A stretch of DNA of 64,000 nucleotides from Phaeobacter sp. B1627 (GTDB lineage: Bacteria > Pseudomonadota > Alphaproteobacteria > Rhodobacterales > Rhodobacteraceae): assembly GCF_006265095.1 (NCBI RefSeq), contig NZ_VCNK01000012.1:1-64000 (forward strand), written 5' to 3'. The notes below the pieces were generated by a model, which did no database searches, was not told where the DNA came from, and saw only the letters and a program-made list of their open reading frames with translations. Each line of letters opens with the position of its first letter. Position 1 is the stretch's first letter. The position numbers were made by a program, and so were the translations under genes. This document shows positions 36,263 through 39,363 of this stretch, piece by piece.

Positions 36263-37300
36263 ATGGCCACGCTCGTTTATCTGGTTCACGGGGATGCACC
36301 GCGTGCCCAGCAGCAACTGTCCTACAGCATCCTGTCCGCGCTCCGGCACGGGCTGGAGGGGATCGAAATCCTGCTGATCTGCGATGCGCCCAACCAGAGG
36401 CCGGATCTGCCGGTGCGCCATCATATCCTATCCGCAGAGACCACTGCGGCATGGGCAGATCAGAACAATACGCCATTGAAGCGGCTACGGGCCGCCCAAC
36501 TCGGCCTTGAGGTGACCGGAGGCAACATCTGCCTGATGGCCACAGACACCGCCTTCAAGGCTCCGCCCCGCCAGCTGTTCGACCTCATCACCGCCGGGGG
36601 GATCCTGGTTCAGGATCACGACGGCTGGCTGGCCGGGCGCTCCGACTGGGATCAGGTCATTGACGCGTGCCGGGGCACGCAGCTGGAGCCACAGGTTCAT
36701 GCGGGGGCTGCGATGTTTGACATCGGGGTTCTGGGCCTGACCCCGCAGGACGTGAATTTACTCTTTCATGTCGAAGAGCTGGCGAAATCTGCTGAAATTA
36801 AGGATCAGCCATCAGAAATCGAACAATTCGCGTTTTCCGCCGCAATCGAGTTGGAGGCGCGCGACGTGGTTTATGCACGCGACCACGTGATCCATTATGA
36901 CGGCTACATGCGCCATGTGTATCACGGCAGGTTTGATGCGATGTTTCCCCCCGGCGCCCCCGTCAACACGGCTCTGGCCCACCGTCTCCCGGCGATAACG
37001 GAGCCTCCGAAGCCGCTGCCTCTGAAACTGCGGGCCAAGGTCTTCGCGCTTCGTCATCGCATGGGGCGGGCGACGGAATTTGGCTATCTGGCCTATCTCT
37101 GCGCCTTTGCGGCCCCCACTGCAGAGGGACGGGATGTCTGGGCGAATATCGCGCTCGACATGATGATGAGGTCCAGCCGCTCCGCCGCGCAGATCGCGCA
37201 GCACCTGCCGCGACTGGCACCGGGAGCTATTGACGATGCCGGGCTGAGGCCCGCGACCCTCGCCCGATGGCGCCACTTCTGGGCCGCACGCGGCACCTGA
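36263..37300 (+). CDS. hypothetical protein, glycosyltransferase-like
   Basis: The 345-residue product has no signal peptide. The N-terminal third (TLVYLVHGDAP, IEILLICDAPN) reads as a Rossmann-like nucleotide-sugar fold, and ICLMATDTAF near residue 93 resembles a strand ending in the acidic metal motif of GT-A glycosyltransferases. Conserved His/Tyr (HYDGYMRHVYHG) follow. This is only a weak resemblance. The spacing of 16 bases suggests co-transcription with the MORN gene, though no ribosome-binding site is visible. Confidence 0.65.
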   Translation: MATLVYLVHGDAPRAQQQLSYSILSALRHGLEGIEILLICDAPNQRPDLPVRHHILSAETTAAWADQNNTPLKRLRAAQLGLEVTGGNICLMATDTAFKAPPRQLFDLITAGGILVQDHDGWLAGRSDWDQVIDACRGTQLEPQVHAGAAMFDIGVLGLTPQDVNLLFHVEELAKSAEIKDQPSEIEQFAFSAAIELEARDVVYARDHVIHYDGYMRHVYHGRFDAMFPPGAPVNTALAHRLPAITEPPKPLPLKLRAKVFALRHRMGRATEFGYLAYLCAFAAPTAEGRDVWANIALDMMMRSSRSAAQIAQHLPRLAPGAIDDAGLRPATLARWRHFWAARGT

Positions 37301-37595
37301 TCCAAGCCGCCGTTCCAGCCGTCCCTAGCAGCCCCGGCATCGCACCTGTATCGACGCGCGCCGTGTTTTCAGCCGTGTTTTTCCAGTCGTGTGTCCCGAA
37401 AGCGCTGACCTGCATCGATGCGCAACGCCTCTGCCCGCTTCCATTGTGCTAGGCGCAGGCCTTTGGGCAGGGCGCAGGCTGCGGAGCCCCCGCTGATGTC
37501 CCGCTTACGGCCACCCGAGCGCGGACCGTGCTCCTGCTGCAATGCAGAGAACTTTGCCCCTTCCCATTCGCTTCGGCAGCTGTATAACTCCCCTC
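37301..37595. other. leuA leader upstream region
   Basis: About 295 bases with no gene. The part near 37369-37391 carries short repeats of CGTGTTTT. TATAAC at 37583-37588 is a good -10 hexamer, though no -35 element at the right spacing is clear. No terminator for the preceding gene was seen. Confidence 0.5.
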
Positions 37596-37682
37596 ATGAC
37601 CACGTATGCCGATATCCAGATTGCCGACGCTGCCCATCGCAGCGCGCTGTCGCGTGGCCTACTGCTCCTAATCCGCCTCTGA
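37596..37682 (+). CDS. leuL: putative leucine-operon leader peptide
   Basis: A 28-codon frame ends ...SRGLLLLIRL followed by TGA. Four consecutive Leu codons (CTA CTG CTC CTA, 37659-37670), two of them the rare CTA, sit one Ile and one Arg codon before a further Leu codon and the stop. This is the classic design of an attenuator leader peptide, placed about 110 bases before leuA. No ribosome-binding site is visible, but a TATAAC -10 lies 7 bases upstream of the ATG, so the mRNA may be leaderless, as for trpL in Sinorhizobium. It is too short to be reported by ordinary gene finding. Confidence 0.6.
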   Translation: MTTYADIQIADAAHRSALSRGLLLLIRL

Positions 37683-37732
37683 GCGTGCCATCCGGCGCGC
37701 CCGCTCAGAGGATGTGCACGCGCGCCACGGAT
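37676..37732 (+). promoter_or_regulatory. competing hairpins of the leuA leader
   Basis: Hairpin A: CCTCTGAGCG (37676-37685) pairs perfectly with CGCTCAGAGG (37702-37711) and overlaps the leader stop codon. Hairpin B: ATCCGGCGCGC (37690-37700) can pair with GCGCGCC-ac-GGAT (37720-37732). They share bases, so only one can form. A third possible stem lies at 37743-37770 (CCCCGA/TCGGGG). No T run is present, so a rho-independent terminator is not proven. Confidence 0.5.
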
Positions 37733-37794
37733 TGGACCCTTCCCCCGACACGAATGAACGACGCTCGGGGACCAGAGCTAGAAAGAATTCTGAC

Positions 37795-39363
37795 ATGACC
37801 AGCACGACCGACCAGGATCGCGTATTGATCTTTGACACCACTTTGCGCGACGGCGAGCAAAGCCCCGGCGCCACCATGACACATGAGGAAAAGCTCGAGA
37901 TCGCAGAGTTGCTGGATGACATGGGCGTTGACATCATCGAGGCCGGATTTCCGATCGCCTCCGAGGGGGATTTCAAGGCCGTCAGCGAGATCGCCGAGAG
38001 ATCCAGAAACTCGGTGATCTGCGGCCTTGCCCGCGCCAATACCAAGGATATCGACCGCTGCGCCGAAGCCGTGCGCAAGGCCGCGCAGCCCCGCATTCAC
38101 ACGTTCATCGGCACCTCGCCCCTGCACCGCGCCATTCCGAACCTGACCATGGACGAAATGGCCGAGCGGATCCACGACACCGTCACCCATGCGCGCAACC
38201 TGACAGACAACGTGCAATGGTCACCGATGGATGCGACCCGCACCGAATGGGACTACCTCTGCCGGGTGATCGAGATCGCGATCAAGGCCGGCGCGACCAC
38301 GATCAATATCCCCGATACCGTCGGATACACCGCCCCCCGCGAAAGCGCTGACCTGATCCGCCGCCTGATCGAAACCGTGCCCGGCGCGGATGATGTGGTG
38401 TTTGCGACCCACTGCCACAACGACCTTGGCATGGCGACGGCGAATTCGCTCGCTGCGGTCGAGGCGGGCGCGCGTCAGATCGAATGCACCATCAATGGCC
38501 TCGGAGAGCGCGCGGGCAACACCGCCCTCGAAGAGGTGGTGATGGCGCTGAAGGTGCGCAACGATATCATGCCGTTTTCAACCGGCATCGACACCCGCAA
38601 GATCATGCATATCTCGCGGCGGGTGGCGACGGTTTCGGGCTTTGCCGTGCAGTTCAACAAAGCCATCGTCGGCAAGAACGCCTTTGCCCACGAAAGTGGC
38701 ATCCATCAGGACGGCATGCTGAAGAACAAGGAAACCTTCGAGATCATGCGTCCCGAGGACGTAGGGTTGTCGGGAACGTCGCTGCCGCTTGGCAAACACT
38801 CCGGCCGCGCCGCGTTGCGCGACAAGCTCGGCACCCTCGGCTATGACATTGGCGACAACCAACTGAAGGACCTCTTTGTTCGGTTCAAGGAACTTGCCGA
38901 CCGCAAGAAAGAGGTGTTTGACGACGATATCGTCGCCTTGATGCGCACCGGTGGCGACGACAGCGACCATCTGAAACTGGTCTCCATGAAAGTCGTCTGC
39001 GGCACCGGCGGACCGGCAGAGGCCACCGTAGAGATGGAAGTCGACGGAACCGATGTGACCGAGGTCGCAGAGGGGGATGGCCCCGTGGATGCCGCCTTCA
39101 AGGCAATTCGCAAGATCCATCCGAACTCCGCGCATCTGCAGCTCTATCAGGTGCATGCGGTGACCGAAGGCACCGACGCCCAGGCCACCGTCTCGGTCCG
39201 GCTGGACGAGGACGGCATTATCGCAACCGGAGAAAGCGCCAATACCGATACGGTTGTGGCCTCGGCCATGGCCTATATCAGCGCGCTCAACCGCCTGATC
39301 GTTCGGCGCAGCAAAATGGGCGATGGCGCTGACGCGCGCGAGATTTCCTACAAGGACGCCTGA
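37795..39363 (+). CDS. leuA: 2-isopropylmalate synthase
   Basis: LeuA condenses acetyl-CoA with 2-oxoisovalerate, the first committed step of leucine synthesis. The 522-residue product has the TIM-barrel motif DTTLRDGEQSPGATM near the N-terminus, the metal-binding HCHNDLGMA, GLGERAGN, and the C-terminal regulatory LeuA dimer domain (about residues 390-520) for leucine feedback. The start at 37795 gives the usual N-terminus (TSTTDQDRVLIFDTTLRDGEQ shortened here); the frame is open from 37714. A leader peptide lies upstream and a rho-independent terminator downstream. Confidence 0.97.
   Translation: MTSTTDQDRVLIFDTTLRDGEQSPGATMTHEEKLEIAELLDDMGVDIIEAGFPIASEGDFKAVSEIAERSRNSVICGLARANTKDIDRCAEAVRKAAQPRIHTFIGTSPLHRAIPNLTMDEMAERIHDTVTHARNLTDNVQWSPMDATRTEWDYLCRVIEIAIKAGATTINIPDTVGYTAPRESADLIRRLIETVPGADDVVFATHCHNDLGMATANSLAAVEAGARQIECTINGLGERAGNTALEEVVMALKVRNDIMPFSTGIDTRKIMHISRRVATVSGFAVQFNKAIVGKNAFAHESGIHQDGMLKNKETFEIMRPEDVGLSGTSLPLGKHSGRAALRDKLGTLGYDIGDNQLKDLFVRFKELADRKKEVFDDDIVALMRTGGDDSDHLKLVSMKVVCGTGGPAEATVEMEVDGTDVTEVAEGDGPVDAAFKAIRKIHPNSAHLQLYQVHAVTEGTDAQATVSVRLDEDGIIATGESANTDTVVASAMAYISALNRLIVRRSKMGDGADAREISYKDA

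Follow-up and report, generated by a model that had tools for sequence, protein, structure and literature searches.

In this stretch of DNA from Phaeobacter sp. B1627, leuA lies behind a leader that, judged by comparison with relatives, is a real and strongly conserved element: a short reading frame with a run of leucine codons near its end and helices built around its stop codon. The leader is probably leaderless, control of leuA is most likely translational rather than classical transcription attenuation, and the cell probably raises leuA when leucine is short. All positions refer to the forward strand of the window, the whole 64,000-nt stretch that was analyzed.

A leucine leader ORF precedes leuA

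The gene itself (37795..39363) encodes a 522-aa 2-isopropylmalate synthase, and a weak sequence, AGAAAG (37780..37785), was read as its probable ribosome-binding site. Upstream, a preliminary description of the region had pointed to a 28-codon frame, and we found it as described, running from an ATG at 37596 to a TGA at 37682 (MTTYADIQIADAAHRSALSRGLLLLIRL); its sequence and its relatives indicate that it is probably leaderless. The frame contains four consecutive leucine codons, CTA CTG CTC CTA (37659..37670), at which Leu is conserved with synonymous switching among relatives, and a final CTC directly before the TGA, so that the peptide ends in GLLLLIRL. CTA is rare, making up 2 of the 183 Leu codons in five window genes. 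ORFs of 10–60 aa with four leucines in a row arose in 18 of 2,000 dinucleotide shuffles of 37301–37794. The leader stop is separated from leuA by 112 untranslated nt, which include a C-rich stretch at 37737–37746.

We collected leuA loci from two sources: a search of 61 genomes, 55 of which had a match and from which 30 loci were taken, and the best 80 among the matches listed for a named genome collection. One locus with a truncated gene (L100) was dropped, and the 109 others were examined for a leader. A Leu-run leader was recognized by script in 103 of them. On follow-up of the six misses, the element proved to be present in five, before a cupin gene in L019, L037, L050, and L061 and near a contig end in L049; L098 was the sole one of the six without it. 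The stop codon is UGA in all 103 leaders, and Leu occupies codons −7, −6, −5, and −4 in 87, 99, 94, and 103 of them, respectively, with varying synonymous codons. Codon −4 is CTT or CTA in 99 of the 103, and the amino acid at codon −3 varies. These counts retain four weak leaders (L027, L085, L087, and L094) and some redundancy, as L012 and L032 apparently represent a single genome and L045 differs little from L046.

Many core bases are invariant across the family. A covariance model of the core, comprising its sequence and the helix termed A below, was built from an alignment (A2) of 91 rows, six of which were, by eye, cut too early (L020, L029, L055, L063, L070, and L093). This model, itself trained on family members, found one match each in 194 of 199 Rhodobacteraceae genomes sampled at one per genus with a completeness of at least 90%. 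Among the five unmatched genomes, two show no leader (L141 and L142), one has a Leu-poor leader (L143), one lacks the gene start (L144), and one contains a distant homologue (L145). Across the class, the model matched 5 of 143 genomes, 3 of them Rhodobacteraceae. It matched the genome of the window's own strain once, and further core copies there were rejected.

Outside the Rhodobacteraceae, inspection by eye, with no statistics, revealed a Leu-containing leader and a stop-holding hairpin at 11 of 13 leuA loci (present at L106–L109, L126, L127, and L129–L133; absent at L128 and L134). Two of these loci, L126 and L127, come from the model itself, and L131–L133 have Leu-poor or broken runs. Leu-poor leaders were seen in distant alphaproteobacteria (L132, ..LLALRLTIA; L133, ..LLALRLIVP; L143, ..LRLTITVD) and may represent a separate variant or decay. 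A further side observation concerns Phaeobacter inhibens M650 (L115), where leuA and a leader of the same kind stand beside rlmJ in a record labeled as a 17.9-kb plasmid.

The preliminary description had proposed an alignment of the leader across Rhodobacteraceae, in which conserved Leu codons and covarying stems would count in its favor; the alignment was made and both were found. The comparison showed an element of greater extent and stronger conservation than the window alone reveals.

Promoter spacing suggests a leaderless start

A −10 box, TATAAC (37583..37588), ends 7 bases upstream of the leader ATG, as noted previously. It is preceded, across a 16-bp spacer, by a weak −35 hexamer, TTCCCA (37561..37566), which agrees with 4 of 6 consensus positions and coincides with a T-rich block in the family. 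A promoter scan of 37300–37900 reported no sigma-70-type site; TATAAC escaped it, as the scan accepts only −10 hexamers whose last base is T.

When the best in-frame start and −10 box were chosen for each leader, 87 of the 103 had a strong −10 box ending 6–9 bases upstream of the start codon, with a gap of 7 bases in 53, 8 in 26, 6 in 6, and 9 in 2. As a control, 96 of 2,990 ATGs inside leuA scored as well, although picking among several starts favors good −10 boxes and the ATG control shares this bias only partly. The commonest boxes among the 87 leaders were TATAGT, TATAAA, and TATAAC. The base before the start codon is C in 85% of these leaders, and their family profile contains a conserved T-rich block spanning roughly −35 to −28 relative to the leader ATG. 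Such a gap leaves little room for a Shine-Dalgarno site of the leader, and we regard a leaderless start as well, if indirectly, supported by this spacing. The earlier proposal of a leaderless leucine leader peptide is thus strongly supported by conservation, including that of the Leu codons, the UGA stop, and the core across genera. A longer in-frame version starting at 37542 was rejected, as the conserved −10 spacing points to 37596.

The sequence [C/G]ATAT[C/T] occurs near the 5′ end of 66 of the 103 leaders, compared with 148 of 7,931 control windows in leuA. In the window it lies at 37611–37616, about +15 to +20 of the leader, and it often encodes His-Ile or Asp-Ile; it could be an aid to leaderless initiation.

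Two crossing helices surround the stop codon

The hairpin previously reported to overlap the stop codon is present as a perfect 10-bp helix, here called helix A, whose 5′ arm CCTCTGAGCG (37676..37685) contains the UGA and whose 3′ arm is CGCTCAGAGG (37702..37711). The second hairpin, initially placed at 37690–37732, is best drawn as GGCGCG (37694..37699) paired with CGCGCC (37721..37726); this helix B crosses helix A. The predicted fold of 37597–37800 had a z score of −2.68 and was better than all but 1 of 200 shuffles.

We aligned 71 compact, distinct leaders with the window (alignment A1, 72 leaders). Helices A and B together had 93.0% of cells paired, versus 88.9% after shuffling, and 46 double-change cells, versus 11.9, and neither value was reached in 500 shuffles. 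The number of pairs with any double change, five, was ordinary, being reached by 67 of 500 shuffles; sliding the partners by +3 gave 6 double-change pairs and 29 cells. As drawn, helix B has its outermost pair open in 31 and its innermost pair open in 28 of the 72 leaders. Both crossing helices are conserved and covary, giving a fold capable of forming a pseudoknot. The two may alternate instead of coexisting, since the linker between the 3′ arms of helices A and B is only 4–5 nt in 23 of the 72.

Leu codons can pair with the leuA ribosome-binding region

We also identified a helix that the preliminary description did not mention, which joins the Leu codons, together with the codon after them, to the stretch that follows helix B. 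In the window, as supported by the own-versus-swapped test described below and the MFE fold, the 5′ arm of this helix C (37664..37675) lies mostly within the Leu codons and consists of an outer GCTC (37664–37667) and an inner CTAATCCG (37668–37675). The inner part pairs with CGGATTGG (37728..37735), and in predicted folds the outer part pairs with GAGC (37775..37778), a single base ahead of the probable leuA ribosome-binding site. Between the two 3′ arms, predicted folds place a clade-specific insert, hairpin D (37742..37770; CCCCCGA at 37742–37748 with CTCGGGG at 37764–37770), for which no counterpart was found in the compact leaders.

The 3′ arm of helix C was too variable for a MAFFT alignment, and we therefore scored the pairing of each leader with its own tail and with tails swapped among loci. 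For 95 unique loci the mean score was 16.2 with the own tail and 10.9 (standard deviation 0.5) with swapped tails, and none of 500 swaps scored as high; the set was without L035, L101, and L106–L109, in which no 3′ arm of helix A or B was recognized. Examples of the variable pairings are TCCTTAGC/GCTAAGGA, TCCTAAGCC/GGCTTAGGA, and TTCTTACGCT/AGCGTAAGAA. A strong helix C (score of at least 16) was present at 53 of 97 loci, in 38 of which its 3′ end lies at most 25 nt from the leuA ATG; the other 44 of the 97 fell under this cutoff, and the test found no helix C at all at L071 and L084.

The window belongs to a clade in which helix C is split by hairpin D, so that the inner arm ends 59–77 nt from the leuA ATG. 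Predicted folds, inspected by eye, place the outer Leu codons on the GAGC beside the leuA site in 10 of the 11 clade members (not in L006), and this outer stem is short, with 4–5 bp at the ribosome-binding site. A base stem joining the Leu codons to the Shine-Dalgarno region is thus present for the family, with the window clade having only the short outer part by predicted fold.

Five operons (L019, L037, L050, L061, and L125, the last from the class-wide model search) have a cupin-like gene of about 118 codons, named by eye, between the leader and leuA; the GTG start of the L050 gene is our own reading. Helix C scored 16–24 in these operons, here without a swap control, and ended 4, 5, 7, 7, and 8 nt before the cupin start. 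Its end overlies the cupin ribosome-binding site, and the cupin-like gene is presumably under the same leader control. These operons amount to a natural experiment in which the switch strand keeps to the start site of the first gene. By eye, L099 seems to retain the remains of a cupin-type intervening gene, and L035 does so less clearly.

The leader region lacks a recognizable intrinsic terminator

The preliminary description had proposed an attenuator while noting that no T run follows the hairpins. The latter agrees with our scan of 37300–37900, in which no terminator-like site was found. Among the 103 relatives, TTTTT occurs between the leader stop and leuA in 3 and TTTT in 15, and a G+C-rich hairpin followed by a T run, the mark of a classical attenuator, was not seen. 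Because T runs are this scarce, an intrinsic terminator is unlikely; we rejected it, and with it a classical attenuator that works through a terminator.

Masking the Leu codons opens the leuA start region in predicted folds

We compared the predicted openness of positions −22 to −6 with and without the Leu codons available for pairing, in folds that ignore helix B; this set was without L027, L035, L038, L042, and L099 and had the five cupin leaders added. In 82 compact leaders, masking the Leu codons raised openness from 0.51 to 0.64, and a change above 0.1 was an increase in 45 leaders and a decrease in 1 (P = 8.5e-9 in a Wilcoxon comparison of masked folds with folds that begin at the Leu codons). 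Among 21 longer leaders the rise was from 0.51 to 0.63 (7 up, 1 down), and in the window the change was small, from 0.48 to 0.55. Shuffling the Leu segment gave an openness of only 0.58. A ribosome placed at the stop codon gave 0.67 in compact and 0.62 in longer leaders; a ribosome there would open the site as much as one on the Leu codons, and the model therefore needs quick release at the stop. These modeled changes support, without proving, control of translation initiation.

Discussion

We consider it rather probable that the element is a leucine-sensing leuA leader acting mainly on translation initiation. The leader peptide, its codons, the promoter spacing, and the helices are conserved; from these we infer the leaderless start, the stalling, the direction of the response, and the translational level. 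Transcription would begin at the A of the leader AUG or next to it, and ribosomes would load directly onto the 5′ terminus. If leucine is sufficient, the translating ribosome would run on to the UGA and depart, after which the Leu codons could pair with sequence overlapping or immediately preceding the ribosome-binding site of the gene that follows, forming helix C around the A/B core and hindering initiation there. When charged tRNA-Leu is short, the ribosome would stall on the Leu codons and cover one strand of helix C, and the site would open. Since CUN codons can be chosen to complement a purine-rich ribosome-binding region, the Leu codons could act as sensor and switch at once. Translational control had been offered earlier as one of two options; it is now the better supported one, since the Leu codons have their pairing partner close to the ribosome-binding site of whichever gene lies first downstream.

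The main rival to translational control is Rho-dependent attenuation, the other earlier option, in which departure of the leader ribosome would leave an untranslated leader open to Rho. In this reading, which we regard as fairly unlikely, stalling or an alternative fold would keep Rho off. Such a mechanism would suit the lack of a detectable intrinsic terminator, and the untranslated stretch before leuA in the window, with its C-rich segment, could serve Rho. In the 71 distinct compact relatives, however, the stop-to-start distance is under 94 nt and largely structured, mean C and G contents are nearly equal (0.32 and 0.31), and helix C tracks the start site of whichever gene stands first.

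A protein or other ligand might instead bind the conserved core and block leuA, with the leader peptide secondary. The many invariant core bases would fit such binding, and the authors who described the actinobacterial LEU element favored a protein, stating that Leu-codon mutations had no effect (PMC1262725). We nevertheless consider this quite unlikely, as the Leu codons are kept with synonymous switching, CTA or CTT stands at codon −4 in nearly all leaders even though both are rare in the five window genes, and the promoter tied to the leader AUG points to leader translation as the sensor.

It is very unlikely that the leader merely boosts leuA translation by reinitiation, without leucine sensing. 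Reinitiation at leader genes has been proposed generally (PMC4833913), but the leader stop and the leuA start are 69–93 nt apart in compact leaders, and as much as 130 nt apart in the genus of the window, far from the 10- to 13-bp peak given there, and a Leu-codon run before a leucine gene would go unexplained. Finally, a chance short ORF with chance hairpins, of the kind that shuffling occasionally yields, was rejected as hardly credible, given the low shuffle counts, the matches in 194 of 199 genera, the Leu codons kept in relatives, and the covarying helices.

The gammaproteobacterial leu leader, a Leu-rich peptide before leuA, is a classical transcription attenuator. RF00512, which we take to be the Rfam family for it, had no match in the window or the tested loci. 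The window gave only unrelated Rfam matches below the gathering score, and no Rfam family reached the gathering score at eight loci, of which six carry actinobacterial or rhizobial leuA; membership in a known Rfam family (release 15) was rejected on these grounds. In the literature searched, we recognized no alphaproteobacterial leuA element, though Vitreschak et al. (2004) and Lopatovskaya et al. (2010) may describe one.

The preliminary description had drawn a parallel to trpL (rnTrpL) of Sinorhizobium meliloti, a leaderless tryptophan attenuator that, according to PMC10117765, gives rise to an attenuator RNA. The parallel holds for a leaderless leader peptide in an alphaproteobacterium; the window leuA differs in that no terminator was found, and the LEU element of actinobacterial leuA comes closest. 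A nearby likeness is leuL1 of Streptomyces lividans (MRFGLLLLSCRGEGL) before leuA, which PMC8079986 describes as giving a leaderless transcript and lacking a typical Rho-independent terminator; it is likewise a leaderless leucine leader, but from an actinobacterium.

According to Seliverstov et al. (2005; PMC1262725), the LEU element of leuA combines a Leu-run leader with a pseudoknot or alternative hairpin, a base stem of Leu codons with the leuA Shine-Dalgarno box, and no obvious terminator. The Rhodobacteraceae element shares with this account a Leu-run ORF before leuA, crossing helices, a base stem of Leu codons, and the lack of an obvious terminator. In sequences that we fetched, Tsukamurella and Nocardia have, after the Leu codons, a helix of 11 bp crossed by one of 7 bp (GACCGGC/GCCGGTC), in the same arm order, and Microbacterium has a 10-bp Leu-codon stem that ends a few bases before the leuA start. 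A −10-like box lies, by eye, 6–10 bases before four actinobacterial leuA leaders. The elements differ in phylum, in sequence, and probably in LeuA type: the window leuA scores under the cutoff of TIGR00970, presumably the actinobacterial type. By eye, the stop codon also lies in the 5′ arm of helix A in Rhodobacteraceae and in the loop in the fetched actinobacterial sequences. By analogy, the element appears to work like the actinobacterial LEU element. The same arm order with different sequences bears on whether they share descent, and convergence is possible. Separately, leuA genes of Shinella and Sinorhizobium related to our Streptomyces LeuA query (L121 and L122) have a Leu-run leader (LLLLGL..RGCRVR) with stable helices and a −10-like box 7–9 bases before the ATG (by eye, 7 in Sinorhizobium and 9 in Shinella).

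Nearly every genome in the family sample carries the element, for which Rfam release 15 offers no match. We hold it to be close to, if a little short of, an even proposition that one leuA architecture is common to Alphaproteobacteria and Actinobacteria, in which the Leu codons of a leaderless ORF close the ribosome-binding region, so that the sensor is the switch and no terminator is needed. It could have had a single or a repeated origin because Leu codons can mimic an anti-Shine-Dalgarno strand. PMC1262725 cites Streptomyces leuA leader mutations with some effect at odds with classical attenuation and, elsewhere, Leu-codon mutations without influence on regulation; it also reports no homologue of the ML1624-type helicase outside Actinobacteria at the cutoff used there. 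A dual role of the Leu codons might explain these confusing mutants, since a Leu-codon mutation could alter sensor and stem together. If true, this would carry a little-understood actinobacterial leuA element over into a second phylum and provide it with a testable mechanism.
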